DNA of 32,363 bases from Afipia sp. (lineage in GTDB: Bacteria; Pseudomonadota; Alphaproteobacteria; Rhizobiales; Xanthobacteraceae). Both the position numbers and the translations under genes were made by a program. The DNA lies in the NCBI GenBank assembly GCA_017474385.1, contig JAFVHU010000026.1, positions 1 to 32,363 on the forward strand. The letters run 5' to 3'. Within the stretch, counting starts at the first letter, position 1, and the number at the start of each line of letters is the position of its first letter. The notes under the pieces were generated by a model, which ran no database searches, was not told the origin of the DNA, and saw only the letters and a list, made by a program, of their open reading frames with translations. This document shows, one piece after another, positions 4,608 through 28,477 of this stretch.

Positions 4608-4955
<348 letters not shown>

Positions 4956-5023
4956 TTTTATTTTTCTAGAGTCTGCATCACCAAGCGACTGCAGCGGCGC
5001 GTGCAAGATGCCGCAAGGTCTTC

Positions 5024-5188
5024 CTAGTGTCCTCAATCCGAAGTTCGCTTCATTTTTCGGCGCGCTCCATAGCGAACTTCGGATTCAAAAGGACACTAGA
5101 ACATTATCATTCTCGTGTGGTTTTGGTTCGCAGGTCCGCAAGAGAATGTGCCGCAGAGATGATGCGGACCTGCGAACCACCACACGAG
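5024..5188. repeat. CTAG-bounded composite palindromic element, copy 1 (hairpins A and B)
   Basis: Hairpin A is 5024-5099. CTAGTGTCC (5024-5032) pairs with GGACACTAG (5091-5099); an asymmetric internal loop (TC against CAAAA) follows; AATCCGAAGTTCGCT (5035-5049) pairs with its complement at 5071-5085; the apical loop is 21 bases. A 12-base spacer AACATTATCATT follows (5100-5111). Hairpin B is 5112-5188: CTCGTGTGG pairs with CCACACGAG, the internal loop is TTTT against A, GGTTCGCAGGTCCGCA (5125-5140) pairs with 5163-5178, and the loop is 22 bases. It lies between glnK1 and amtB1, ending 14 bases before the amtB1 start. Confidence 0.95.
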
Positions 5189-5202
5189 CCGGGGGGATTA
5201 CC

Positions 5203-6513
5203 ATGTTGAGATTGCCGCGTGCGGTCGCACATTTTGCGACGGCGGTTTCTGCTGTGAGCTTCGCTGTTACATCTGCGACGCCAGCACTCGCTGAAACGAT
5301 CAAGATCGATGCCGCCGATACCGCGTGGATGATCACGGCGACCGCGCTCGTCCTGATGATGACGATACCGGGCCTCGCGCTGTTTTATGCCGGCATGGTG
5401 CGCAAGAAGAACGTGCTGGCGACCATGGCGCAAAGCCTGATCGCCGTGGCGCTGATTTCTCTTCTTTGGGTGATCTACGGCTACAGCCTGGTGTTTGCCG
5501 GCGACGGCGCCTGGCTCGGCACGCTGGAGCGCTTCCTGCTGGCCGGCATGACGATGGACGGCGTCAACAGTGCGGCAAAGACCATTCCGGAAGCGCTGTT
5601 CGTGATCTACCAGATGACCTTTGCGGTCATCACCGTCGCGCTGGTGGCGGGATCGGTCGCCGACCGCATGCGCTTTTCATCCTACGTCCTGTTTTGCGTC
5701 GGCTGGTTTACATTTGTGTACGTCCCGCTGGCGCACTGGGTCTGGGGCGGCGGCTTTCTCGCGCAGGCCGGCGTGCTCGATTTCGCCGGCGGCCTTGTGG
5801 TTCATCTCAGCGCCGGCACCGCTGGCCTTGTCGCAGCGGTCGTGATGGGACGACGCCGCGGCTACGGCACCGAGAACCTGGCGCCCTACGATCTTTCGCT
5901 CGCGGTGATCGGCACCGGACTGCTCTGGGTCGGCTGGTTCGGCTTCAACGGCGGCTCGGCCTTGCAGGCCAACTCGCGCGCCGTGATGGCGATCCTCGCG
6001 ACGCATCTGGCCGCCTGCGCCGGCGCGCTGACGTGGAGCGCGATCGAATGGATGACGCGGCGCAAGCCGTCGGTGCTCGGCATGATCTCCGGCGCCGTGG
6101 CCGGTCTCGGCACCATTACACCCGCCTCGGGCTTCGTGGAGCCCTGGCACGGCATCGTGATCGGCGTGGTGGCAGGGGCGGTTTGCTTCTGGGCCTGCAC
6201 CAGTCTCAAGCACCGCTTCAACTATGACGACACGCTCGACGTGTTCGGCATCCACGGCATCGGCGGATTGCTGGGAACACTGATGACCGGTGTTTTCGCC
6301 ACCGCCGCCATCGGCGGGACGGCCGGGCTGATCGAGGGCAATCCCAGGCTGCTGCTGACCCAGGCCTATGGCGTGGCGGTGGTGTTCGTCTGGACCGGCG
6401 GGATGACGTTCGTTCTGCTGAAGGTGGTCGACATGCTGGCCGGTCTGCGGGTTCCGCACGAGCACGAGGTCGAAGGGCTCGACATCACCCAGCACGGCGA
6501 GGCGCTCCAATAA
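5203..6513 (+). CDS. amtB: Ammonium transporter AmtB (copy 1)
   Basis: A 436-residue Amt/Rh channel for ammonium uptake across the inner membrane. It has an N-terminal signal peptide (cleavage probably after TPALA, about residue 30) and then 11 expected membrane helices. The pore residues are present: the twin histidines in VLDFAGGLVVHLSAG and LDVFGIHGIGG, the Phe-gate region QMTFAVIT and WFGFNGGS. It lacks the Ala/Lys-rich TM4-TM5 loop of copy 2. I chose ATG 5203 because the signal peptide begins there; the open frame further upstream runs through glnK1 and the palindromic element and is not coding. It should be regulated by the adjacent GlnK, but the inserted element makes operon readthrough uncertain. 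Confidence 0.95.
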   Translation: MLRLPRAVAHFATAVSAVSFAVTSATPALAETIKIDAADTAWMITATALVLMMTIPGLALFYAGMVRKKNVLATMAQSLIAVALISLLWVIYGYSLVFAGDGAWLGTLERFLLAGMTMDGVNSAAKTIPEALFVIYQMTFAVITVALVAGSVADRMRFSSYVLFCVGWFTFVYVPLAHWVWGGGFLAQAGVLDFAGGLVVHLSAGTAGLVAAVVMGRRRGYGTENLAPYDLSLAVIGTGLLWVGWFGFNGGSALQANSRAVMAILATHLAACAGALTWSAIEWMTRRKPSVLGMISGAVAGLGTITPASGFVEPWHGIVIGVVAGAVCFWACTSLKHRFNYDDTLDVFGIHGIGGLLGTLMTGVFATAAIGGTAGLIEGNPRLLLTQAYGVAVVFVWTGGMTFVLLKVVDMLAGLRVPHEHEVEGLDITQHGEALQ

Positions 6514-7184
<671 letters not shown>

Positions 7185-7221
7185 TTTCGCGCAAACCTCA
7201 TCTTATCAGGAGTACAAACAA

Positions 7222-8664
<1,443 letters not shown>

Positions 8665-8719
8665 GCGAGTTCAGGAACAACGGTTGGGGCACAAACCCGG
8701 CAATGCCCCGTCCGTCGGA

Positions 8720-8753
8720 GGGCCCCAGCGCAAGCTGGGGCCCTTACTTTTTG
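8720..8753 (+). terminator. Rho-independent terminator of glnK2-amtB2
   Basis: A perfect 10-bp stem, GGGCCCCAGC (8720-8729) with GCTGGGGCCC (8734-8743), closed by a GCAA tetraloop of the GNRA type and followed by TTACTTTTTG. It is the clearest intrinsic terminator in the window. Confidence 0.93.
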
Positions 8754-8948
8754 TGCCGCGACATCTACGAAAATGGAGGCCGGTTTTCGGATAAGATGCC
8801 CTCCGAAGGAGGCGGCAAACCACGCCCGCGCGGCGATGGTTAATCGCGTCTTAACCTCGCCGCACCTATGGTGACGTGATCAAATCCCGCGTGGCCCCCT
8901 GACCGACCCGCAGGATCGACGGACCTTAAAAGTGCTGGCGTTTTTCGA

Positions 8949-10178
8949 ATGGCCATGACCGCTTCTTCCCGCTCGGCTTCCGCCGCCGGCGCCCAAGACG
9001 GCGAGCGCTCGCCGTTTGCCCGGCTGACCGAGCTGCTGAGCGCCTATACGCCGGGCAAGCCGTTGATAAACATGTCAATTGGCGAGCCGCAGCACCCGGT
9101 GCCGGGCTTTGTCGGACCGGTGCTGGCCAGCCATATCAACGAGTTCGGCCGCTACCCGATTGCCAAGGGCATCGAGCCGTTCCGGCAGGCGGCGGCCGCC
9201 TGGATCTCGCGGCGATTCGGGCTGGCCAAGGCGATCGATCCCGAAACCGAAATTCTGGTGCTCAACGGCAGCCGCGAGGGGCTGTTTTTCGCAGCCATCG
9301 CCGCCGCGCGCTATGTCGGTCCCCGCAAGGGTACGCCCGCGATCCTGATGCCCAATCCGTTCTATCCGGCCTATGCGGCCGGTGCGCGGGCCGCCGGATG
9401 TGAAGCGGTGTTTCTGCCGACCACGCGCGAGAACGGCTTTCTGCCCGATCTCGATTCCCTGAGCGCGGAAACGCTCGACCGCACCGTCGCCTTTTACCTT
9501 GCCTCGCCTGCGAACCCTCAAGGCTCGGTGCCATCGCGCGCGTATTTCGACCGCGTGAAGCAGCTCGCCGACCGTCACGGCTTCATCGTGCTCAGTGACG
9601 AATGCTATTCCGAAATCTACACCGGCGAAGCGCCGGGCAGCATGCTCGCCTCCGCCGGACATGATTTTGCCAATGTGGTTGCGTTCCAGTCGCTTTCCAA
9701 GCGGTCGAACCTGCCGGGCCTGCGCGTCGGCTTCGTCGCCGGCGACAAGAATTTTCTCGCGCGCTTTCATGAGCTGCGCAATGTCGCTGCGCCCCAGGTG
9801 CCGGTCCCGCTGCAGCATGTCGCTGTCGCCGCCTACAGCGACGAAACCCATGTCGACGAGAACCGCAGGCTCTACCGGATCAAGTTCGATCTCGCGGACC
9901 AGATTCTCGGCAACCGTTTCGGTTACCGGCGGCCCGCGGGCGGATTCTGCATCTGGCTCGATGTCTCCGCGCATGGCGGCGACGAAGCCGCGACAGTGAA
10001 GCTTTTTAAGGAAGGCGGCGTACGCGTCATTCCCGGAAGTTATCTGGCCCGGCCGCAAGCCGACGGCAGCAACCCCGGCACCGGATACATCCGCGTCGCC
10101 CTGGTGCAGCAGGACAGTGAAACAACGGCTGAAGCGTTGCACCGAATGGTCGACGTCTTGAACGAAGCTCGAGGCTAG
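8949..10178 (+). CDS. dapC: Fold-type I PLP aminotransferase, probably succinyldiaminopimelate transaminase
   Basis: A 409-residue class I/II aminotransferase. Substrate-binding and PLP motifs visible are LINMSIGEPQHP (about 38-49), NPFYPAY, ASPANPQGS (the Asn-Pro pair contacting PLP), LSDECYSEIY and SLSKRSNLPGLRVGF, with Lys251 as the Schiff-base lysine. The last motif and overall pattern fit DapC, which makes N-succinyl-LL-2,6-diaminopimelate for lysine and peptidoglycan; related aminotransferases with other substrates cannot be excluded. The neighbour ftsK (cell division) is typical in relatives. Start is ATG 8949 (ATG 8955 is also possible). The TAG stop (10176-10178) is part of the CTAG that opens palindromic element copy 2. 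Confidence 0.83.
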   Translation: MAMTASSRSASAAGAQDGERSPFARLTELLSAYTPGKPLINMSIGEPQHPVPGFVGPVLASHINEFGRYPIAKGIEPFRQAAAAWISRRFGLAKAIDPETEILVLNGSREGLFFAAIAAARYVGPRKGTPAILMPNPFYPAYAAGARAAGCEAVFLPTTRENGFLPDLDSLSAETLDRTVAFYLASPANPQGSVPSRAYFDRVKQLADRHGFIVLSDECYSEIYTGEAPGSMLASAGHDFANVVAFQSLSKRSNLPGLRVGFVAGDKNFLARFHELRNVAAPQVPVPLQHVAVAAYSDETHVDENRRLYRIKFDLADQILGNRFGYRRPAGGFCIWLDVSAHGGDEAATVKLFKEGGVRVIPGSYLARPQADGSNPGTGYIRVALVQQDSETTAEALHRMVDVLNEARG

Positions 10179-10341
10179 TGTGGTGGTTCGCAAGTCCGCA
10201 TCATTTCTGCAGCACGGTCCATTTGCGGACTTGCGAACCAAAACCACACTAGAATTATATTTTTCTAGTGTCCTCTCGAATCCGAAGTTCGCTCCGGGAG
10301 GATGCCGCGAAAGAAAGCGAACTTCGGATTCGGGACACTAG
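10175..10341. repeat. CTAG-bounded composite palindromic element, copy 2 (hairpins B' and A')
   Basis: Hairpin B' is 10175-10252: CTAGTGTGG pairs with CCACACTAG, the internal loop is T against AAAA, GGTTCGCAAGTCCGCA (10185-10200) pairs with 10224-10239, and the loop is 23 bases. A 12-base spacer AATTATATTTTT follows (10253-10264). Hairpin A' is 10265-10341: CTAGTGTCC pairs with GGACACTAG, extra TCT sits on the left arm, AATCCGAAGTTCGCT (10279-10293) pairs with 10316-10330, and the loop is 22 bases. It is copy 1 in reverse orientation, diverged. The left CTAG holds the dapC stop codon, and the right end is 7 bases from the ftsK ATG. Confidence 0.95.
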
Positions 10342-10348
10342 TAAACCT

Positions 10349-12802
10349 ATGCCAGCGATCGAACGCGTCATTCCCATCGTCGGCCAAATCTCCGATCCGT
10401 TGCGCGAGATGCTGGCGCGCCGCCTGCGCGAACTCGCCGGGCTCGGCGTTATCGCGCTGTCGTGTGTCGTCGCCGCCGCGCTCATGACCTGGTCGGTGCA
10501 GGATCCGAGTCTCAGCCACGCAACCTCCGGTCCGATCCGCAATCTGATGGGCCGCCCGGGCGCGATCGGCGCCGACATGCTGATGCAGATTCTCGGCCTC
10601 GGCGCGATCATGCTGATCCTGCCGGTGGCGATCTGGGGCTGGCGGCTGCTGACGCATCGCCATTTCGACCGCGAAGCCTTGCGGATCGCCTGCTGGATTC
10701 TGTGTGCCGTGATCGCGGCGGGATTTGCAAGCTGCCTGCCACGCAGCGGCGCGTGGCCGTTGCCGACCGGACTCGGCGGCGTCGTCGGCGATGCGCTGGT
10801 GCGTTTCCCTGCGGTGGTGTTCGGTCCGCCCGGCCTGATCTATCGCATCGTACTTGGCGTCATCCTGTTCGCCGCAATGATCGGAAGCTTCGTCTTCGCA
10901 TGCGGCGCGGGCGCGCAGGAAAAGATCGTCGAGCGCACACGGCCGCCGATGATCGAGGACGAAGAGGATTTCGAAGAAAGTGACCGCCGCTCGATTTCGC
11001 TCGGCTGGATCGTTCATACCGCCATGAGCGCAAAAACGCGCATGGTACGGGCACTTTCGGCCTTCTTCGCGATGCTCGTCGGACGCTCGGAGTCGCGCCG
11101 CGCCGCATCGTTCGAGCGCATGGAGCCGGATCTTGGCGGCGGACGCCGCGCTCCGTCGCTGGTGCCGCAAGACGAGTACGAAGAGGAGCAGGAAGAAGAG
11201 GACGAGGAGGAAGAAGAGGAAGAGCCCGCCCGTGCGACGCGCAAGCGCGCCGAGCCAAAGGCGTCGAAACGCAAGGGCGCTTTCGTACTGCCGCCGATCT
11301 CCGTGCTGGCCGCGCCGAAATCAACGGATCGCCAGCCCCTCAGCAAGGACGAGCTGGAAGCCAACTCGCGCGCGCTGGAAGGCGTGTTGCAGGACTTCGG
11401 CGTGCGCGGCGAAATCACCAATGCGCATCCCGGCCCGGTCGTCACGCTGTACGAACTCGAACCAGCGCCCGGCATCAAGTCCTCGCGCGTGATCGGCCTG
11501 GCCGACGACATCGCCCGCTCGATGAGCGCGGTGTCGGCCCGTGTCGCCGTCGTTCCTGGCCGCAACGCCATCGGCATCGAACTGCCGAACCAGCATCGTG
11601 AGAAGGTTTATCTGCGCGAGCTGCTGGTCGCCAAGGAAGGCAACGAGTCCACCGCCAAGCTGCCGCTGTGCCTCGGCAAAACCATCGGCGGCGTCTCGAC
11701 CATCGTCGATCTCGCCCGCATGCCTCACCTGCTGATCGCCGGCACCACCGGCTCCGGCAAGTCGGTCGCCATCAACACCATGATCCTGTCGCTGGTGTAT
11801 CGCCTGCGCCCCGATCAGTGCCGCCTGATCATGGTCGACCCGAAGATGCTCGAACTCTCGGTCTATGACGGCATTCCACATCTGCTGACGCCGGTCGTGA
11901 CCGATCCGAAGAAGGCCGTCGTCGCGCTGAAGTGGGCGGTGCGCGAGATGGAGCAGCGCTACAAGAACATGTCCAAGCTCGGCGTGCGCAACATCGACGG
12001 CTACAACGCCCGCGTTGCCGAAGCCAAGGCCAAGGGCGAGGAGCTGACCCGCACCGTTCACACCGGCTTCGACAAGGAAACCGGCAAGGCGATCTACGAG
12101 GAAGAAAAACTCGAACTCGAACCGTTGCCCTTCATCGTCATCATCGTGGACGAAATGGCCGACCTGATGATGGTCGCCGGCAAGGACATCGAAGGCGCGG
12201 TGCAGCGCCTTGCGCAGATGGCGCGCGCTGCCGGCCTGCATGTGATCCTCGCCACCCAGCGGCCGTCGGTGGACGTCATCACCGGCACCATCAAGGCAAA
12301 CTTCCCGACCCGCATTTCCTTCCAGGTGACGTCGAAGATCGACAGCCGCACCATTCTGGGCGAGATGGGCGCCGAGCAACTGCTCGGTCAGGGCGACATG
12401 CTCTATATGGCCGGCGGCGGCCGCATCAGCCGCGTCCACGGCCCGTTCGTCTCGGACGAGGAAGTCGAAAAGATCGTCCGTCACCTCAAGTCGCAGGGTC
12501 AGCCCGAATATCTCGAGGCGGTCACGGCGGAAGAAGAAACCGACGAGGACGGCAACGCCGTGTTCGACGGCACCAGCATGGGCGCCAACGGCGGCGAAGG
12601 CGACCTGTTCTCGCAGGCCGTTGCGATCGTCAAACGCGATCGCAAGGCCTCCACCAGCTACATCCAGCGCCGGCTCCAGATCGGTTACAACCGTGCCGCC
12701 ACCCTGATGGAGCGGATGGAGCTGGAAGGCATCGTCGGACAGGCCAATCACGCCGGAAAACGTGAGATTCTGGTCGCCGAGGAAGAGGATCGATTTGGCT
12801 GA
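10349..12802 (+). CDS. ftsK: DNA translocase FtsK
   Basis: An 817-residue FtsK/SpoIIIE ATPase that pumps chromosome termini through the closing septum and activates XerCD at dif. Membrane segments lie at about residues 31-48, 77-98, 111-129 and 164-186. A highly acidic linker run of Glu/Asp follows (about 276-293), then the motor with Walker A GTTGSGKS (about 465-472) and Walker [15 protein letters not shown] (about 594-607). The C-terminal winged-helix gamma domain is [37 protein letters not shown] (from about 752), which reads KOPS. I chose ATG 10349; the frame stays open to GTG 10268, but that segment is the palindromic element. No Shine-Dalgarno outside the element is visible. Confidence 0.96.
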
Positions 12803-12886
12803 GACCCTGTTCGCAGCCGCGAAAACGCCATAGCTTGGGGCTAGCCCCGACGGAAAGATCACAAGACATCCCGACAGGACGGACCG

Positions 12887-13723
12887 TTGAGAAAATTCCA
12901 TCGCAATCAGCCGTTCTGCCAGCCCCGGCGCCCCACACGTGCTGTTTCTGTCGCGAAAGTGCCGATGATGGCGCTGGCGGCAACAATTGCAGCATCGCTG
13001 ATGATGCCATCGGCACTGGCCCAGGCTGTTCCGGTTCCAAAGCCCGCGCCAAAAGCCCGCATCGGGGACACTCCTGCACCGCCGGTGCAAGGACCAGCCA
13101 CGTCGGCACCACCGACGCCGATCATTCCGGATCTGCGCAGCCTGTTCGGCGGCGGAACGCCAAACCAGAACTTCGACGCCAATCAAAAGGCGCTGGCCGG
13201 CAAGGTCAGCACCTATCTCTCGTCGTTGCAGAACGTCTCGGGCAATTTCGTGCAGGTCGGTCCGGACGGAAAACGCACGACCGGCGATTTTTATATCCAG
13301 AAGCCCGGCAAGATCCGCTTCGAATATGACGATCCGTCGCCGATCGCGCTTGTGGCCGACGGCACCTCGGTGGTCGTGCTGGATCGCAGGCTCGCGACCC
13401 AGGACGTCTATCCGTTGTCGCAAACGCCATTGCGCTACCTGCTGTCCGACCGCATCGATCTGCTGCGCGACACCAATGTGGTGGGCGTCTCCGCGGACAA
13501 CATGTTCATCAGCGTGACCATCGAGGAAAAGCAGGCGCTGGTCGGGACCAGCCGGCTGATGCTGATGATCGGGGTCAAGGACAACCAGCTCAAGCAATGG
13601 ACCGTCACCGATCCGCAGGGCTACGACACCACAGTCGCGGTCTACAATCTCGACACCACCAAGAAGCTCGATCCCTCGATGTTCAAGATCGACTTCACCA
13701 ACTACCAGAACTCGAACAACTAG
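12887..13723 (+). CDS. lolA: LolA-like outer-membrane lipoprotein carrier protein
   Basis: A 278-residue periplasmic protein of the LolA family. LolA accepts lipoproteins from the LolCDE transporter and ferries them to the outer membrane. The LolA region starts at about residue 100: YLSSLQNVSGNFVQVGPDGKRTTGDFYIQKPGKIRFEYDDPSPI, followed by LRYLLSDRIDLL and a Tyr/Asn-rich C terminus. The N terminus has a basic stretch, a hydrophobic core MMALAATIAASLMMPSALAQA (signal peptide) and a Pro-rich linker. The start is probably TTG 12887, with AGGA 7 bases upstream; ATG 12965 or 12968 would give a shorter, more usual signal peptide. It follows ftsK by 84 bp and may be cotranscribed. Confidence 0.87.
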   Translation: MRKFHRNQPFCQPRRPTRAVSVAKVPMMALAATIAASLMMPSALAQAVPVPKPAPKARIGDTPAPPVQGPATSAPPTPIIPDLRSLFGGGTPNQNFDANQKALAGKVSTYLSSLQNVSGNFVQVGPDGKRTTGDFYIQKPGKIRFEYDDPSPIALVADGTSVVVLDRRLATQDVYPLSQTPLRYLLSDRIDLLRDTNVVGVSADNMFISVTIEEKQALVGTSRLMLMIGVKDNQLKQWTVTDPQGYDTTVAVYNLDTTKKLDPSMFKIDFTNYQNSNN

Positions 13724-13732
13724 GTCGTTGCC

Positions 13733-13844
13733 GTCACCCTGAGGTGCGAGCCTCTTCGGCGAGCCTCGAAGGCCGACGGTAGCCCCGTCACTCGTATCTC
13801 GTCATCCTTCGAGGCGCGCAAGAGAGCGCGCACCTCAGGATGAC
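13733..13844. repeat. Palindromic intergenic repeat, GTCAYCCTGAGGTGC type (copy 1)
   Basis: The outer arms are GTCACCCTGAGGTGC (13733-13747) and GCACCTCAGGATGAC (13830-13844), with inner GCCTCGAAGG / CCTTCGAGGC segments. The same type occurs at 24852-24952. It lies directly after lolA, where it may act as a terminator or RNA stabiliser. Confidence 0.85.
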
Positions 13845-13880
13845 GTTTCCTCGCCGCGCGGCCTGTGCTTTACGTTTCCC

Positions 13881-14696
13881 ATGCGTCTTACCCTGACCAC
13901 GTGGAACATCAATTCGGTGCGGCTGCGCATCGATCTGGTCGCGAAGTTCATCAAGTCCGTGCGGCCCGATGTGCTGTGTCTTCAGGAAACAAAATGCATC
14001 GATGACGCATTTCCGCTGAAGCGTTTCAAGCGGCTCGGTTACGAGCACGTCGCGCTCAATGGCCAGAAGGGCTATCACGGCGTCGCTATCGTCTCGAAGA
14101 TACCCTTCGAGAGCAGCGATGTGCGGACGTTCTGCGGCAAGGTCGATTCACGGCATATTTCCGTGGCGTTCGGGCAGAAGGCGCAAATTGCCGAACCGCT
14201 GGTCGTGCATAACTTCTACGTGCCCGCCGGCGGCGATATTCCCGATCCCGAACTCAACCCGAAGTTCGAACACAAGCTCACGTTCCTCGACGAGATGCGC
14301 GACTGCGAACCGCTGCATCCGAAAGCCCCCGACCGGCATATTCTCGTCGGCGATCTCAACGTCGCGCCGCACGAGCATGACGTGTGGTCACACAAGCAGC
14401 TCTTGAAGATCGTTTCGCATACGCCGATCGAGTGCGAGAAGCTGCTCGCAGTTCAATCCCACGGCAACTGGATCGACGTTGCACGGCAACGGATTCCCCT
14501 CTCGGAGAAAGTCTATACATGGTGGAGCTATCGCTCTGCGGACTGGAGCGCGGCGAACAAGGGCCGCCGTCTCGATCACATCTGGGTCTCGCAGGCGCTG
14601 GGCGATAGTGTTCGCGATTTCAGAATCACCAGGGACGCGCGCGGCTGGGAGCGCCCGTCAGACCATGTGCCGGTGACCGCCGTCCTCGATGTGTGA
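13881..14696 (+). CDS. xthA: Exodeoxyribonuclease III
   Basis: A 271-residue Mg-dependent exonuclease III / AP endonuclease of the base-excision repair pathway; it cleaves 5' of abasic sites and degrades 3' ends of duplex DNA. The endonuclease/exonuclease/phosphatase motifs are complete: TTWNINSVR (Asn), LCLQETK (catalytic Glu, about residue 35), HGVAIVSK, ILVGDLNVAPHEHDVW (Asp and Asn), RRLDHIWVS (Asp) and the C-terminal SDHVPV (His). Length is normal. It is convergent with the cyclic-nucleotide-binding gene, with only 12 bp between the two stop codons. Confidence 0.95.
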   Translation: MRLTLTTWNINSVRLRIDLVAKFIKSVRPDVLCLQETKCIDDAFPLKRFKRLGYEHVALNGQKGYHGVAIVSKIPFESSDVRTFCGKVDSRHISVAFGQKAQIAEPLVVHNFYVPAGGDIPDPELNPKFEHKLTFLDEMRDCEPLHPKAPDRHILVGDLNVAPHEHDVWSHKQLLKIVSHTPIECEKLLAVQSHGNWIDVARQRIPLSEKVYTWWSYRSADWSAANKGRRLDHIWVSQALGDSVRDFRITRDARGWERPSDHVPVTAVLDV

Positions 14697-14708
14697 GTCG
14701 CGATAAAA

Positions 14709-15149
14709 CTATCGCAGCGTTTCGGTCGCCCGAACCATGGCACCGGCGGCTGCGTTGGTGCGCGCGGCAAAATCATCGCGCAGACGCCGTGCCGCTTCAG
14801 GATGACTTTCGAGCACGCGCTGGAACAGACTGCGCGAAATACGCAGCACCGACGACGGTTCGAGAGCCGTCGCCGTCGCCGGCCGCGCCATCGCCACCAC
14901 GAGCGCGAGTTCGCCGATCAGAACATTCTGGCCTGCAATGGCTTCTTGTCCGTCGTCCGAGGCGATGCGAAACGCGCCGTGCCTGACAATGAAACCGGAA
15001 TCCGCCGCGTCGCCCTGTTCGAACAACCGCTCACCGAAACCGTAGTCGCGTTGCTCGGCGCCGATCGCAAGCACCTGCAATGCCGCCGCACCCAACAAAT
15101 TCAATGTCGGGACGCGCGAAAACAGGGCGATGTCGTCTTCAATGGCCAT
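14709..15149 (-). CDS. Stand-alone cyclic-nucleotide-binding domain protein
   Basis: A 146-residue protein made almost entirely of one CRP-like cNMP-binding beta-roll: ERLFEQGDAADSGFIVRHGAFRIAS and the phosphate-binding-cassette-like segment IGELALVVAMARPATATAL, with the GE and Arg positions kept, then the C helix FQRVLESHPEAARRLRDDFA. There is no DNA-binding HTH and no catalytic or membrane domain, so it is not a CRP-type regulator by itself. Whether it binds cAMP or cGMP is unknown. It lies 33 bp downstream of the CenR-like regulator on the same strand, so the two may be cotranscribed and functionally linked. Confidence 0.85.
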   Translation of the reverse strand: MAIEDDIALFSRVPTLNLLGAAALQVLAIGAEQRDYGFGERLFEQGDAADSGFIVRHGAFRIASDDGQEAIAGQNVLIGELALVVAMARPATATALEPSSVLRISRSLFQRVLESHPEAARRLRDDFAARTNAAAGAMVRATETLR

Positions 15150-15182
15150 AGCGTGCCGAAATAAATCGGCGATTGATTCGCC

Positions 15183-15869
15183 TCATGGCACCAGCTTATA
15201 GCCCCCGGACTCAGTCACAAGAATTTCGGGGTTTGCAGCGTCTTTCTCCACCTTCTGGCGCAGGCGATAGATATGCGTTTCCAGCGTGTGGGTGGTCACG
15301 CCGGAATTGTAGCCCCAGACCTCCTGGAGGAGGGTCTCGCGCGACACCGGCATCTGCCCGGCGCGATAGAGAAAACGCAGGATCGCGGTTTCCTTTTCGG
15401 TGAGCCGGACCTTCTTGGCGTTGGCGCCGGTCAGCATCTTGGAGCCCGGGCGGAAACTGTAGGGGCCAACCGAAAACACCGCGTCTTCGCTGGCTTCATG
15501 CTGGCGCAACTGCGCACGAATGCGGGCCAGCAGCACGGCAAAGCGGAAAGGCTTCGCGACATAGTCGTTCGCGCCCGATTCGAGGCCGAGAACCGTGTCC
15601 GAATCGGTGTCGTGCCCGGTCAGCATGATGATCGGCGACTTGAAGCCGCCCTTGCGCAGGCTGCGGACAACTTCGCGGCCGTCGGTATCGGGCAGGCCGA
15701 CATCCATCAGCACGAGGTCGGGCGAGTTGCTTTTCGCCGCCAGCGCGCCTTTCGCGCCGGTATCGACGGCGGATGCCTCGAACTCCTCGTGAAGCGACAA
15801 CTGCTCCACCAGGGCATCGCGCAGATCGGTATCGTCATCCACGATCAGGATCTTGCGGGCGTTGGCCAT
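15183..15869 (-). CDS. cenR: OmpR-family response regulator, CenR-like
   Basis: A 228-residue two-component response regulator. The receiver domain (about 1-122) has the acidic pair DD (11-12), phosphoacceptor Asp56 in VLMDVGLP, Thr in MLTGHD and the Lys in YVAKPF. The C-terminal winged helix (about 132-226) has LTEKETAILRFLYRAG and VTTHTLETHIYRLRQKVE. The receiver opening ILIVDDDTDLRDALVEQLSLHEEF and VGPYSFRP closely match, from memory, the alphaproteobacterial cell-envelope regulator CenR, which is essential for envelope integrity in several species. No histidine kinase gene is adjacent. The nearby envelope gene (L,D-transpeptidase, divergent across 129 bp) is consistent with that role but is not proof. 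Confidence 0.82.
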   Translation of the reverse strand: MANARKILIVDDDTDLRDALVEQLSLHEEFEASAVDTGAKGALAAKSNSPDLVLMDVGLPDTDGREVVRSLRKGGFKSPIIMLTGHDTDSDTVLGLESGANDYVAKPFRFAVLLARIRAQLRQHEASEDAVFSVGPYSFRPGSKMLTGANAKKVRLTEKETAILRFLYRAGQMPVSRETLLQEVWGYNSGVTTHTLETHIYRLRQKVEKDAANPEILVTESGGYKLVP

Positions 15870-15998
15870 TGCATCCAGTCCTTTAAAATTCGGCTTGTAT
15901 AAGAGGGTCCAGAGAACAATCTCGAGGAACCTCGGCGAAATAGAGCATTTGCAGGCGAAAGCGCAAGCCGGAGTTGTACGCAGTCACGGGAACCAATT

Positions 15999-16568
15999 AT
16001 GGGAAATATAGGCTTTCCAATGGCTTATCGAACACCGTTGCGTGATCGACCGCTTTTCGCTGTCAGGGTTCATGCTGCCGCAGGCCGGCCGAACCAGGGT
16101 TGGCTGGTCGCCGGCACGCATGTCCTACCGGTCGCGCTTGGACGCGGCGGAATCAAGGCCAACAAGTTCGAAGGCGATGGCGGAACCCCCCGCGGCATCT
16201 TCCGGCCGGTGCGGCTGTGGTGGCGCGCCGACAGGCACCCCCGGCCGCGAACCTATCTGCCGATCCGGGCGATCGGTCCCGCCGACGCCTGGTCGGAAGA
16301 TCCCACTGATCGGCACTACAATCGCGCGGTCAAACGCGCGCCCGGCGAGGGCGGTGACCGGTTGGCGCGGGAGGATCATCTTTATGATTTCATCATCGAG
16401 ATCGACCACAACACCCGGCCGCGCGTCGCGAAAAGAGGCAGCGCCGTTTTCCTGCATCTCGCCCGCGAGAAATTTTCACCAACCGCAGGCTGCGTCGGAC
16501 TCACCAAAAACGCGATGCTGAGATTGCTGTCGCGGTTGGGACCGGAGACGAAAATCGTGATCGGCTGA
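15999..16568 (+). CDS. L,D-transpeptidase (YkuD) family protein
   Basis: A 189-residue protein with a YkuD-type catalytic domain. The signature is SAVFLHLAREKFSPTAGCVGLTK, with His153 and the nucleophile Cys165 in AGCVGLT. Family members make 3-3 peptidoglycan cross-links or attach outer-membrane proteins to the wall; this is a short version of the kind common in Rhizobiales. No signal peptide is evident, which is odd for a wall enzyme; export may be by another route or the true start may differ. ATG 16020 is an alternative start 7 codons in. It is divergent from the CenR-like gene and convergent with yggS, with 13 bp between stops. Confidence 0.85.
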   Translation: MGNIGFPMAYRTPLRDRPLFAVRVHAAAGRPNQGWLVAGTHVLPVALGRGGIKANKFEGDGGTPRGIFRPVRLWWRADRHPRPRTYLPIRAIGPADAWSEDPTDRHYNRAVKRAPGEGGDRLAREDHLYDFIIEIDHNTRPRVAKRGSAVFLHLAREKFSPTAGCVGLTKNAMLRLLSRLGPETKIVIG

Positions 16569-16581
16569 ACGCTCGCGAAAA

Positions 16582-17271
16582 TCAGCGATGACCGAAGATC
16601 GCGGAGCCAACACGCACATGGGTAGCGCCGAGCTGAATCGCGGTGGCGAAATCCGCGCTCATCCCCATCGACAATAATTTCAGTCCGTTGCGCGCCGCGA
16701 TCTTGGCGGTCAGCGCGAAATGCGCCGCCGGCGGATCCTCGACCGGCGGGATGCACATCAGTCCGGAAATTTGCAGGCCGTAGACGTCACGGCAGCTCGC
16801 AATGAATGCGTCGGCGTCGGCCGGCGCGATCCCCGCCTTCTGCGGTTCTTCGCCGGTGTTGAGCTGAACGAACAGTTGCGGATGCCGGTCTTGCTTAACG
16901 ATTTCCTTCGCCAGCGCCTCACAGAGACTGGCGCGATCCACCGAGTGGATGGCGTCGAACAGCGCGACGGCTTCCTTGGCCTTGTTCGATTGCAATGGCC
17001 CGATCAGGTGAAGCGCAAGACCGGGATGTTCGGCCATCAACGGCGGCCACTTGGCCTTCGCTTCCTGCACCCGGTTTTCACCGAACACGCGCTGACCCGC
17101 GCGGATCACCGGCGCGATGGCCTCGCCATCGAATGTTTTCGACACAGCTACGAGCGTCACCGAGGAGCGATCACGGCGGGCGTCCTTGCACGCGCGCGAC
17201 ACTTCGCGCTCTACGGCGGCAAGCCCGTTTGGTGAATCAGATGTTACCGGCGGCACATTATCCACAGCCAT
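16582..17271 (-). CDS. yggS: YggS family pyridoxal-phosphate homeostasis protein
   Basis: A 229-residue PLP-binding protein (PLPBP/YggS/PROSC) with a single alanine-racemase-like TIM barrel. It binds PLP without known catalysis and keeps free PLP and amino-acid pools in balance. Visible motifs are LVAVSKTF with the PLP lysine Lys45, VFGENRVQEAKAKW, LHLIGPLQSNKAKEAV, HSVDRASL, VQLNTGEEPQKAGI and the C-terminal LSMGMSADFATAIQLGATHVRVGSAIFG. Length and motifs are normal. It is divergent from the diguanylate cyclase gene with 106 bp between starts. Confidence 0.95.
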   Translation of the reverse strand: MAVDNVPPVTSDSPNGLAAVEREVSRACKDARRDRSSVTLVAVSKTFDGEAIAPVIRAGQRVFGENRVQEAKAKWPPLMAEHPGLALHLIGPLQSNKAKEAVALFDAIHSVDRASLCEALAKEIVKQDRHPQLFVQLNTGEEPQKAGIAPADADAFIASCRDVYGLQISGLMCIPPVEDPPAAHFALTAKIAARNGLKLLSMGMSADFATAIQLGATHVRVGSAIFGHR

Positions 17272-17377
17272 CGATGCAACCTTGCCTTCAAAATAAGGAT
17301 CATTCGAATTTTAGCGAATTCAAGAAAGGGTCCTTGAAGCCTTTTTTGTAGTGTTGGCGTGGGGCAAGGGAATACCG

Positions 17378-19069
17378 ATGTCAATCGCCAGCTTCGGCCG
17401 CAACACGTCTAAACTCAAGGCGCTATTCGGGATTCGCGCGCGCCTTGTGCTTCTGGCGTTGATTCTGGTCGTCCCGTTGATGCTCGATCGCGTCCGTTTG
17501 CTGGAAGACTCGCGCTCCAGGCAGATGATGCAGGCCGCAAACGAGCTGTCGGAGCTCGCAAAACATACCGCCGATGCGCAGCGCGAAATCATATCGACGG
17601 TCCAGGCCGTTGTGAAATCCTCCGCCTACATTTATGCCGCCGCTTCCCAGCAGGGCCGCGGTTGCGCGGTGATGCGCGCAAGCCTTCGTGTTGATTTACC
17701 CTGGATCAGAAACCTTTCGATTATTGGTCCGGAGGGTAAGATCGATTGTTCGACATCGCAAAGCATCGTCGGTTTCGATCTCAGCGACCGCGACTATGTC
17801 ATCAAGGCGCGTGAGCTTCACGAGTTCGTTCTGAGCGACTACATCTCAAGCCGCATTACCGGCCTGCCGACGATGATTGCCGCATACCCGGTTTCGGCGG
17901 TGGACGGCGGACAGGAATCGGTGGTCATCGCTGCGATCGATCTGAAATGGATGTCGCAGTTGCTGGCGAATCGCGGCGGACGCTCCGGCGTATCGGTCGT
18001 TCTTGTCGATGGCACAGGAAAGATTCTCGCATCTCCTCCCGAAAGCGCAAGTCTGATCGGACAGCCGCTCAAGGACACATCGCTTTTTGAGGCAGTCGTC
18101 CTTCGCGAGATCAATCTCGATCGGGAATACGGTTCGATCTCCTTCGAGTCCGCCGATGGCGAACGCAAGGCAGTGTCCTTCGCGCGGGTCACCGGCACAC
18201 GGGCCCGCATGATTGTCAGCACCAACCAGTCCCTGATGCTGGGTGATATCAACCGCGATATTCGGACTGCATACATACAGCTCGCAATCGTGGTTCTCGC
18301 GACGCTGCTCGGCGCCTGGTTCGCCGGCGAGCGCCTGATCATCCGGCCGCTCCGCATGATGACCGACACCGCCAATCGGTTTGGCCGCGGCGAATTCTCG
18401 GCGAAGGCCTCGAACGCCTCATTGCCGATTGAGTTCATTCCGCTCGCCAAGGCCTTCGATACCATGGCGTCGCAACTGTCCGAGCGGGAGCGCGAAATGG
18501 CCGCCGCCAACGACCGGCTGACCGTCATCGCATCGCTCGATCTTGTGTCCGGGCTGGCCAACCGCCGGGGCTTCCAGAGCCGGCTCGAATTCGAATGGAT
18601 GAAAGCGCTGCAATCCGACAGCCGGCTTTCGCTTCTGATGATCGACGTCGATCATTTCAAGCTTTTCAACGACACCTATGGCCATCCGGAAGGCGACGCC
18701 TGTCTCAGCCGCGTCGGCGAAGCGCTCTCGACAATCGCGGATGCCTGTGCCGGCTTCGCAGCCCGCTATGGCGGCGAGGAATTTTGTCTGTTGCTGCCGA
18801 ACAGCAATCCGGCCCGCTCGCTGCAGGTGGGCGAAAAAGTTCGCACAACAATCGAAGAGCTGTCGATTCCGCACATCACCAGCGACTTCAAGCGCGTCAC
18901 TGTCAGCGTGGGCATCGCAACGGTCACGCCGGGCAGCGCCCAGCCGCAGGACGACCTGATCGAGGCGGCGGACGCGGCGCTGTATGCGGCCAAACGCCGG
19001 GGCAGGAACGCGGTGGTCGAACACGGCCTGATCCGGCCTGCCGATCGGCCGGTTTCGCTGGCCGGCTAG
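17378..19069 (+). CDS. Membrane-bound diguanylate cyclase with periplasmic Cache-type sensor
   Basis: A 563-residue signalling enzyme that makes cyclic di-GMP from two GTP. Order: membrane helix about 20-37, a periplasmic domain about 40-295 with double-Cache character (RDYVIKARE, YPVSAVDGG, ILASPPESASLIGQPL), a second membrane helix about 300-320, a HAMP-like linker about 322-375 and a GGDEF domain about 385-550. The active site is RYGGEEF (465-469) with LLMIDVDHFKLFNDTYGHPEGD upstream. The RxxD product-inhibition site normally 5 residues before GGEEF is absent (ACAG there). I chose ATG 17378 because AAGGGA lies about 7 bases upstream; GTG 17351 would add 9 residues. The TAG stop is formed by the CTAG opening element copy 3. 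Confidence 0.92.
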   Translation: MSIASFGRNTSKLKALFGIRARLVLLALILVVPLMLDRVRLLEDSRSRQMMQAANELSELAKHTADAQREIISTVQAVVKSSAYIYAAASQQGRGCAVMRASLRVDLPWIRNLSIIGPEGKIDCSTSQSIVGFDLSDRDYVIKARELHEFVLSDYISSRITGLPTMIAAYPVSAVDGGQESVVIAAIDLKWMSQLLANRGGRSGVSVVLVDGTGKILASPPESASLIGQPLKDTSLFEAVVLREINLDREYGSISFESADGERKAVSFARVTGTRARMIVSTNQSLMLGDINRDIRTAYIQLAIVVLATLLGAWFAGERLIIRPLRMMTDTANRFGRGEFSAKASNASLPIEFIPLAKAFDTMASQLSEREREMAAANDRLTVIASLDLVSGLANRRGFQSRLEFEWMKALQSDSRLSLLMIDVDHFKLFNDTYGHPEGDACLSRVGEALSTIADACAGFAARYGGEEFCLLLPNSNPARSLQVGEKVRTTIEELSIPHITSDFKRVTVSVGIATVTPGSAQPQDDLIEAADAALYAAKRRGRNAVVEHGLIRPADRPVSLAG

Positions 19070-19228
19070 TGTCCCGTATCCGACGTTTGCTTCATTCTGC
19101 AGCGCCTCCCGAGCAAACGTCGGATACGAAAGGACACTAGCAAACTGTAATTCTAGTGATCCTTGGGTTCTGACATTCGTAAAAGGGCCTGCGAAGGATG
19201 TCATACGAATGTCAGACCGGATCACTAG
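19066..19228. repeat. CTAG-bounded composite palindromic element, copy 3 (hairpins C and D)
   Basis: Hairpin C is 19066-19140: CTAGTGTCC pairs with GGACACTAG, the internal loop is C against GAAA, GTATCCGACGTTTGCT (19076-19091) pairs with 19112-19127, and the loop is 20 bases. A 12-base spacer CAAACTGTAATT follows (19141-19152). Hairpin D is 19153-19228: CTAGTGATCC pairs with GGATCACTAG, the longer side of the internal loop is on the left, TCTGACATTCGT (19169-19180) pairs with 19205-19216, and the loop is 24 bases. The left CTAG contains the stop codon of the diguanylate cyclase. The right end is 101 bases from the leuS start. Confidence 0.95.
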
Positions 19229-19286
19229 GGCCGCGCAGACCATATTTGCGCCTAAGGCGTTGACCCATCGCGGTCTTTTGTGGCTA

Positions 19287-19319
19287 GTCTGCCGCCTCCT
19301 TTATCCCCCTTTGGCAGAC
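19287..19319 (+). promoter_or_regulatory. Possible leader hairpin before leuS
   Basis: GTCTGCC (19287-19293) and GGCAGAC (19313-19319) are a perfect 7-bp inverted repeat around a pyrimidine-rich 19-base loop, 11 bases upstream of the leuS ATG. A TTGACC (19260-19265) nearby could be a -35 element, but no good -10 is visible. Function is speculative. Confidence 0.35.
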
Positions 19320-25853: not shown

Positions 25854-26510
25854 TTATCGCCGCTCGATTGTGTTGAGCTCGACGATCCAGCCGTGTCCGC
25901 CGGTGCGGCTGGGATGTAAAATGGGCTCGATATTCCAGTATTTAGTAGCTTCCGTCAATTCGGACTCTACATCTTGTCCCTTTAGAAAGAGTGCTTTCGC
26001 GCCCCGGCTCACCAGAGGTTCCGCATAGTCCAGCAACATATGTAGTGGAGCGACCGCACGCGCTGTGACGCAATCTATCGGCACATGCGAGCTATCCACA
26101 TAATCCCCGATGTCGGCGAGGATAACCGAGCCGGCAGCGCCGGTGACTCGAAGCGCTTCGCGCAGAAACGCCGCCTTCTTGGCGTTGCGCTCGACGAGCT
26201 GAACGGACGCGCCTTCATGCTCCGCCATTGCACAGGCCAGCACCACACCGGGAAAGCCGCCGCCGCTGCCGAAGTCGAGCCAATGTCTCGCCGACGGCGC
26301 GAGATCCAGAAGCTGGAGAGAATCGGCGATGTGCCGGGTCCAGAGCTGCGGAAGCGTGGAGGGCGAGATGAGATTGGTCTTGGCCTGCCACGCCACAAAC
26401 AGATCGACATAGCGATCGAGCCGCGCCTCTGTTTCACGTGAAACAGGAGTCAGCGCCAAAGCCGCCGCCTTGTCCGAAGCCGGGTTGGAAATGGAGGCCG
26501 CTTTGGCCAT
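25854..26510 (-). CDS. rsmG: 16S rRNA (guanine-527-N7) methyltransferase RsmG
   Basis: A 218-residue SAM-dependent methyltransferase (GidB) that methylates G527 of 16S rRNA; loss gives low-level streptomycin resistance in other bacteria. The SAM site is WLDFGSGGGFPGVVLA (about residues 83-98), followed by VQLVERNAKKAAFLREAL and DCVTARAVAPLHMLLDYAEPLV. I chose ATG 26510 (MAKAASISNP), 8 bp after the mnmG stop; the frame is open further upstream only inside mnmG. The codons for PVSRET near residue 23-28 form a perfect parS site at 26430-26445, so the gene doubles as part of the centromere. Confidence 0.95.
   Translation of the reverse strand: MAKAASISNPASDKAAALALTPVSRETEARLDRYVDLFVAWQAKTNLISPSTLPQLWTRHIADSLQLLDLAPSARHWLDFGSGGGFPGVVLACAMAEHEGASVQLVERNAKKAAFLREALRVTGAAGSVILADIGDYVDSSHVPIDCVTARAVAPLHMLLDYAEPLVSRGAKALFLKGQDVESELTEATKYWNIEPILHPSRTGGHGWIVELNTIERR
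26430..26445. promoter_or_regulatory. parS site 1 (inside rsmG)
   Basis: TGTTTCACGTGAAACA is a perfect 16-bp palindrome identical to the canonical bacterial parS. ParB binds it as the centromere seed. It lies within the rsmG coding sequence and reads as part of PVSRETE. Confidence 0.96.
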
Positions 26511-28445: not shown

Positions 28446-28461
28446 TGTTTCACGTGAAACA
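28446..28461. promoter_or_regulatory. parS site 2 (mnmG-mnmE intergenic)
   Basis: A perfect TGTTTCACGTGAAACA. Bound ParB here would lie over the probable mnmG promoter or leader region. Confidence 0.97.
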
Positions 28462-28477
28462 CCGGGGCGGGCAGACT

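Follow-up and report, generated by a model that had tools for sequence, protein, structure and literature searches.

A 32,363-nucleotide contig of Afipia sp., a relative of Bradyrhizobium (assembly GCA_017474385.1, contig JAFVHU010000026.1; this whole stretch is called the window below), carries three copies of a composite palindrome of about 165 bp (5024-5188, 10175-10341 and 19066-19228), in each of which two bulged hairpins face each other across a short AT-rich spacer. Comparison of these places with their counterparts in related genomes strongly suggests that the double hairpin is a mobile element and that it inserts at the tetranucleotide CTAG. With its two facing bulged hairpins, each with a stem of about 24 bp, it is most probably non-autonomous and similar in scale to miniature inverted-repeat transposable elements (MITEs) and REPINs.

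Mobility is indicated by orthologous empty sites, which the earlier note on this DNA had proposed to look for and which are present in relatives for all three copies. Copy 2 reads CTAG-element-CTAG in the window, and the corresponding place holds a single CTAG and no element in the relatives G012 (...ggCTAGaa...), G007 and G009 (ggCTAGgc in both). The site of copy 1 is empty in G001 (CTTC-CTAG-CCGGGG), that of copy 3 is empty with CTAG in G012 and G004, and at a fourth site it is G004 that possesses an element, shortened by an internal deletion, where the window (19284), G012 and G001 have an unoccupied CTAG. Each of the four filled sites, with a CTAG on either side, has a counterpart with just one CTAG in at least one relative, if later decay is allowed for; such decay is seen in the CGAG that ends copy 1 and the CCAG that ends the G004 remnant. 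The CTAG on both sides may mean that CTAG was duplicated, that TA alone was duplicated, or that one CTAG was borne by the element. No strong base preference beyond CTAG was seen by eye at 40 sites of the genome to which the window belongs (the own genome, G000) or at 41 sites of G210, a genome described below. The copies and their parts are as follows.

5024..5188, plus strand: copy 1 (hairpin A, spacer, hairpin B), flanked by a P-II gene (4617-4955) and by an ammonium transporter gene that starts at 5203.
5024..5099, plus strand: hairpin A of copy 1, CTAGTGTCC...GGACACTAG; its inner (3') arm has the longer, A-rich bulge.
5100..5111, no strand: spacer of copy 1, 12 nt, AT-rich.
5112..5188, plus strand: hairpin B of copy 1, CTCGTGTGG...CCACACGAG, CTAG substituted on both arms; its inner (5') arm has the longer bulge.
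10175..10341, minus strand: copy 2 (A-spacer-B read on the minus strand), with an aminotransferase gene and an ftsK-like gene as its neighbours.
10175..10178, plus strand: outer CTAG of copy 2, whose TAG is the stop of the upstream open reading frame (ORF) 8949-10178; CTAG also stands in the empty sites of G012, G007 and G009.
10175..10252, minus strand: hairpin B of copy 2, by fold and CTAG-hairpin detector.
10265..10341, minus strand: hairpin A of copy 2, by fold and CTAG-hairpin detector.
19066..19228, plus strand: copy 3 (hairpin A with another kind of partner, CTAGTGATCC...GGATCACTAG), flanked by a GGDEF gene and a leucyl-tRNA synthetase gene.
19066..19069, plus strand: outer CTAG of copy 3, whose TAG is the stop of the upstream ORF 17351-19069.
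19066..19140, plus strand: hairpin A of copy 3, by fold and CTAG-hairpin detector.
19153..19228, plus strand: second hairpin of copy 3, variant B2, after a 12-nt spacer, by fold and CTAG-hairpin detector.
19284..19287, no strand: unoccupied CTAG, the site at which G004 has the internally deleted element.

Hairpin A starts with CTAGTGTCC, runs through an inner stem of about 15 bp and a loop of about 20-25 nt, and returns along the stem and past the longer A-rich bulge to GGACACTAG; the AT-rich spacer and the facing hairpin B (CTAGTGTGG or a relative of it) follow. The longer bulge always lies on the inner arm, that is, the 3' arm of the first hairpin, where it is A-rich, and the 5' arm of the second, which agrees with the opposite orientation of the hairpins described in the earlier note. 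The three copies were recovered exactly where that note had placed them, with fold z-scores between -10 and -13 (-10.35, -12.64 and -10.56 for copies 1, 2 and 3) and 0 of 200 shuffles folding as well for any of them. The CTAG-hairpin detector found five of the six window hairpins (the sixth starts with CTCG) and a single hairpin in 100 first-order Markov windows; since no shuffle was as good and the Markov windows were nearly empty, the folds are not due to chance. The CTAG ends attributed to all hairpins are present except in the second hairpin of copy 1, which has CTCG...CGAG. The supposedly fixed 12-nt spacer is common to the three window copies (12 nt also separate hairpins B and A of copy 2) but varies from 10 to 14 nt in 41 aligned copies of the own genome (10 nt in one, 11 in 13, 12 in 23, 13 in three and 14 in one). 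Copy 2 is indeed copy 1 turned around: the two share three inverted arms, of 71 nt (90% complementary), 43 nt (91%) and 48 nt (79%), and copy 2 read on the minus strand is 83% identical to copy 1 by BLAST.

The high genome load that the same note expected from three copies in the window is borne out, as the own genome (4.48 Mb in 162 contigs, 84% complete) contains at least 41 copies, a lower bound like all copy counts per genome given here. A BLAST search with copy 1 yielded 40 distinct copies (40 of 67 first-look places were scored), 34 of them nearly whole-length at E<1e-24, and copy 3 is the 41st. The outcome that the note had named as refuting its view, these three copies and no more, did not materialise. 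In the 41-copy alignment, 98.0% of 1966 stem cells are paired and 32 of 48 pairs have changed on both sides, a result that 0 of 500 shuffles and no slide equalled, while mean pairwise identity is 0.89 in the stems, 0.60 and 0.53 in the two loops and 0.58 in the spacer (0.90 for the closest pair of copies). The stems keep pairing while their sequence changes, and the loops drift more. To judge from the consensus of these copies, A and B are diverged inverted homologues, because 17 of their 24 outer positions agree and the long bulge is inner in both. The bulge itself is regular well beyond this genome: it is one-sided and 2-4 nt long in 206 of 217 CTAG hairpins from 116 loci of the GTDB genome set (0/3 in 115, 0/4 in 58 and 0/2 in 33), among which 213 orientable hairpins have 97 different inner 15-mers. 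By eye, the loops often contain GC(A/G)GC.

Several observations weigh against an element that is mobile, targets CTAG and is read by its fold. Some empty sites have no CTAG: in the comparison of copy 2 with 12 relatives of the same genus (the flank of G005 did not align), G001, G004 and G008 have TTAG, CGAG and CCAG, respectively, and G003, G002, G006, G010 and G011 have other letters at that place; copy 1 is empty without CTAG in G012 and G004, and copy 3 is empty with CTAA in G001. At an older site, between genes that we take to be rplY and pth, none of the nine genomes without the element has a CTAG. Over the 213 arms, a single letter accounts for at least 86% at each of positions 1-7, 11, 14, 17-21 and 23, so that a loose terminal consensus, in part imposed by the search pattern, exists alongside the fold, and a double-strand terminal repeat could be what the enzyme reads. 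The compensatory changes, in turn, could stem from template-switch correction of palindromes. At the rplY-pth site, where the element is common to three species (G001, G002 and G007), paired columns change about as much as unpaired ones (identity 0.81-0.85 and 0.74-0.81, respectively), and 18 of the 63 pairs folded in G001, loop pairs among them, are broken in another species; three main-stem pairs have changed on both sides. Selection on the stems after insertion is not supported at this single site, which weakly suggests that the structural constraint acts during spreading rather than after insertion. Orientation shows no bias with respect to replication in G012, where 19 copies point with the fork and 21 the other way, but the element is close to symmetric. 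No moving enzyme was found by profile searches for Y1, DDE_3 and DDE_Tnp_1 or among the neighbouring ORFs.

The element could instead be a conserved regulatory or RNA element, such as a 3'-end stabiliser, a terminator or a protein-binding site, that is not primarily mobile. Its strong folds and intergenic sites would suit such a role, as would the old site common to three species and the GANTC (CcrM) sites, which the A stem has on its 5' arm in 34 and on its 3' arm in 35 of 41 copies. Yet the B half has GANTC in only one of 41 copies, the window copies are absent at the orthologous places of 11 of 12 relatives for copy 2 (G005 being the unaligned one) and of three of three for each of copies 1 and 3, and across 13 Afipia genomes the rplY-pth place is without the element in nine and has a remnant in one. 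We consider such a role highly improbable as the primary nature of the element.

The family is widespread. The pattern GGACACTAG-N9-15-CTAGTGTGG occurs in at least 116 further stretches of the GTDB genome set, those listed including Afipia, Nitrobacter, Bradyrhizobium, Rhodopseudomonas, Devosia, Hyphomicrobium, Pseudolabrys, Parvularculaceae, Paramagnetospirillum, Magnetospira and Acidiphilium; all are Alphaproteobacteria where the record gives class or a lower group, some records stating only 'Proteobacteria'. A covariance model (R1), applied with strict filters and to no more than 15 places per genome in the class and 9 in the phylum, which makes its results lower bounds, detected the element in at least 13 of 190 genomes of the class (own genome included) and in at least 10 of 299 genomes of the phylum, all ten being the own genome or members of its family or order. 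Copies are present in all six well-completed Afipia genomes (G012, G001, G004, G006, G010 and G011), with at least 40 in the complete genome of G012. Seven plasmid records match over 61% of the query at 77% identity, phage records gave no match at E 0.001, and Rfam gave none at the elements at its gathering threshold. Five IMG/VR contigs (L356-L360) have copies or single hairpin matches, and the three of them with ORFs listed are phage- or prophage-like.

The metagenome-assembled genome G210 (Hyphomicrobiales Dino_bin40; loci L232-L271) carries at least 42 copies with 96-100% identity to the query (40 of 431 first-look places were scored), and this near-identity marks a recent burst of the element. 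Among 43 distinct copies of G210, the outer CTAG is present on the left in 38, on the right in 37 and on both sides in 32. Some neighbouring elements share one tetramer (L091 and L095, and L255 with CGAG), and in L088, L238 and L240 an element reads as inserted in the inner CTAG of another. The nest occurs twice, L238 and L240 being 92% identical over 317 bp, and has either moved as a unit or arisen by two hits on the same CTAG. Internal deletions are found as well: L227, L231 and the G004 remnant in L195 are single hybrid hairpins or remnants that join the 5' arm of A to the 3' end of B, and in L103 (6488-6590) hairpin B and the spacer are followed by CTAGCTAG, hairpin A having seemingly been lost exactly between its two CTAGs.

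CTAG is rare in the window: base composition predicts 113 occurrences and a first-order Markov model 29, against 15 present, 10 of them inside elements. With each element collapsed to one CTAG, eight sites remain, three of which are occupied. The genes upstream of copies 2 and 3 use the TAG of the target as their stop codon, and among the 41 copies (82 sides) an intact outer CTAG ends a coding-like ORF in 11 of 46 cases, compared with 13 of 225 TAGs of the window; in L003, open frames from both sides terminate in the two outer CTAGs. As CTAG is palindromic, contains TAG and is kept on both sides, stop codons are preserved even for two genes converging on one CTAG. Insertion of this kind would be nearly harmless and would ease spreading.

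The feet of the hairpins suggest how the element could move. When the element folds, the outer CTAG, presumably derived from the target, pairs with the inner CTAG, which belongs to the element, and the two make up the four base pairs at the foot of each stem; through such pairing the inner CTAG could choose the target by complementarity, in the manner of the guide sequences of IS200/IS605. Lifted out single-stranded, the element would offer its inner CTAG to a target CTAG, and an enzyme supplied in trans would move it, partly recognising the folded hairpin end (foot, inner-arm bulge and stem) beside the loose terminal consensus. The near-symmetric layout would let either strand act, in line with the absence of a strand bias; insertion of IS200/IS605 is strand-specific and lagging-strand-biased, and the ends of IS608 are direct, not inverted. 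The likeness to IS200/IS605 lies in palindromic ends beside a tetranucleotide and in guide pairing, cleavage sites of those elements being chosen by base pairing with guide tetranucleotides according to PMC8266576. Unlike them, the element has no gene, its ends are inverted and the same CTAG stands at both. We favour an element whose folded ends contribute to recognition. Single-strand, hairpin-guided transposition itself is a candidate that we put forward tentatively and hold to be as likely as movement by a DDE transposase.

The earlier note had likened the palindromes to the bacterial interspersed mosaic elements (BIMEs) formed by repetitive extragenic palindromic (REP) sequences, which would make the element a true REPIN or BIME moved by a Y1 (HUH) transposase of the REP-associated (RAYT) type. 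As far as layout is concerned the analogy is sound: the hairpins are paired, bulged and, in the window folds as in the 41-copy alignment, inverted, and PMC3733652 and PMC8266576 describe REP, BIME and REPIN sequences as short, high-copy and mostly intergenic, often with facing and sometimes bulged hairpins and frequently as heterodimers, and RAYTs (PMC8266576) as recognising hairpins (some bulged) and a tetranucleotide. Single-strand insertion 3' of CTAG would also account for the single CTAG of the empty site and the two of the filled one. The mover is where the analogy breaks down. The Y1_Tnp profile (PF01797) has a match in one of 13 Afipia genomes, and the own genome, which is 84% complete, has none; it matches in nine of 28 element-bearing genomes, G210 having one weak match, and leaves 19 without one (the 28 comprise 18 genomes of the GTDB loci and 10 of the 12 non-own covariance positives, G163 and G207 being left out). 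A Y1 gene flanked by the same hairpins, which the note had suggested seeking, was not found among the 17 Y1 loci scanned (1.5 kb per side where present); a CTAG hairpin lies near one of them, 240 bp off, and there an IS200-type element seems to have entered a copy or landed next to it. RAYT/Y1 was rejected as the general mover, as most carriers tested have no match and no Y1 gene was seen bounded by the hairpins. The structure differs too. The stems, as the note had observed, are longer (about 24 bp against 5-13 bp in Table 1 of PMC3733652) and the spacer shorter (10-14 nt against 20-100 for most REP pairs); by the same table, the element meets neither the CGTC tag nor the 8-9 bp stem of the CGTC REPs. 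CTAG was put forward as the counterpart of the GTAG/GGAG motif, but it is the genomic target and, itself or as its substitutes, is paired at both stem feet, so that nothing in the element corresponds to an unpaired GTAG, GGAG or CGTC tag. A RAYT-moved REPIN is thus an unlikely description of it.

A DDE transposase duplicating CTAG or TA would explain the target as well as the single-strand model does, and the element would then be a MITE of a DDE insertion sequence (IS) of the IS630, IS5/IS427 or IS701 type, groups that prefer CTAG or TA as target. CTAG on both sides, the symmetry of the element and the lack of strand bias all suit such an origin, as do its ends, which form a terminal inverted repeat (the 17 of 24 outer positions common to A and B) with a loose consensus over the 213 arms. 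Enzymes are at hand in some carriers: DDE_3 of IS630 (PF13358) is found in five and DDE_Tnp_1 (PF01609) in six of the 12 carriers tested (seven of the 13 Afipia and five others), with three and eight matches, respectively, in the own genome and five of DDE_Tnp_1 in G210. However, neither has a match in the six copy-bearing, well-completed Afipia genomes, G012 with its 40 or more copies among them, so that these families are not required there now, although movement there may be old, and they may have acted in the past or may act in the own genome. DDE_3 is likewise without a match in G210 despite the recent burst, no IS with these ends was seen in the regions read, which are part of each genome, and such an enzyme does not demand a fixed one-sided bulge or compensated stems. 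We hold both the DDE transposase as mover and the derivation from a DDE insertion sequence to be plausible, though doubtful. The six Afipia genomes without Y1, DDE_3 or DDE_Tnp_1 matches look transposase-poor altogether.

It is somewhat less probable that the mover is something other than a single-strand guided or a DDE enzyme. A further reading, which we mention with reserve, is a class of element read mainly by shape, in which the inner CTAG would pair with the target CTAG, an enzyme outside Y1, IS630 and IS4/IS5 would act in trans, and insertion would be nearly harmless by virtue of the kept TAG stops. Another, which we regard as rather unlikely, is a fold-back element processed as folded or cruciform DNA by a tyrosine recombinase, a RuvC-like DEDD enzyme, or a host nuclease and repair. 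A structure kept under sequence change and the six carrier Afipia genomes without Y1, DDE_3 or DDE_Tnp_1 matches would accord with it; it has no direct evidence, no search having been aimed at those enzyme classes. An autonomous partner, in which A and B would enclose a gene, was not encountered in the hairpin scan of the 116 GTDB loci, in 16 Afipia partial-hit regions, in 42 strong G210 hits, among repeats shared within the same genome or in the three viral contigs with ORFs listed out of five, scans that covered only a fraction of each genome. Of two intervals of about 1 kb beside lone hairpins, that in L103 holds an aldose-epimerase-like ORF, named by eye, and that in L124 holds nothing coding-like. 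The 137 ORFs adjoining elements at the GTDB loci fall into 165 Pfam families, and none of the 25 commonest is a transposase family.

ERIC, Correia, RUP and YPAL are palindromic bacterial MITEs of 100-170 bp that contain no gene and duplicate their target. With a generic MITE the element shares its short, non-coding and multi-copy nature, the target sequence on both sides and the terminal inverted repeats, whereas two separate facing hairpins, the CTAG target and the lack of a parent IS (none sharing its ends was seen in the loci read) set it apart from those four families. The CIR repeats of Caulobacter exceed 100 bp and have inverted repeats with GANTC. These CcrM-associated intergenic repeats are, like the element, alphaproteobacterial and intergenic (PMC10969869), a likeness of description rather than of the CIR1/CIR2 consensus. 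Br-REP1 and Br-REP2 of Bradyrhizobium are also palindromic, lie in intergenic regions and 3'-UTRs (untranslated regions) and belong to related bacteria, but their consensus sequences of about 20-40 nt, given in PMC5082802, are dissimilar by eye. The claim of the earlier note that no named family has this form agrees with the literature searched, mostly outside subscription journals and with the original CIR description outside its scope, in which no description of the element was found; five literal stem strings had no occurrence in the full texts searched, and PMC12542641, in the part available, mentions Afipia and MITEs in separate contexts. Broadly speaking, the element is a MITE for which no parent was found; it is not a REP or REPIN, on account of tag, stem length and Y1, nor, by eye, Br-REP1 or Br-REP2.

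Copy 1 lies within the first of two tandem pairs of P-II and ammonium transporter genes (4617-8664), which share stretches of about 75% identity. As its end is 14 bp upstream of the transporter start codon, it may influence expression of that gene. Directly after the second ammonium transporter gene, 8672-8753 matches the Rfam family BjrC68, a small RNA of Bradyrhizobiaceae, with 91 bits. An inverted pair with the core TGTTTCACGTGAAACA is located at 26421-26445 and 28446-28470; the core matches the parS site, and the pair may mark a chromosome-partition locus. At the orthologous places of 14670-16620, relatives (loci L193, L194, L195 and L198) have other intergenic palindromes, of the CGTCATTGCGAGCGAAGCGAAGCAATCC and CCTCATCCTGAGGAGCGC types, that are missing from the window; the CGTCATTGCGAGCGAAGCGAAGCAATCC type is similar to the REP family with the CGTC tag.

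Bacteria commonly carry small palindromic repeats between their genes, and for many of these no mover is known. The strict CTAG target, the burst in G210, the copies in Afipia G012 and the clear empty sites make the mover of this element traceable by subtraction and testable in vitro, and the paired outer and inner CTAG makes target choice by base pairing directly testable. Insertion that preserves stop codons suggests how an element of this kind can spread through gene-dense genomes.

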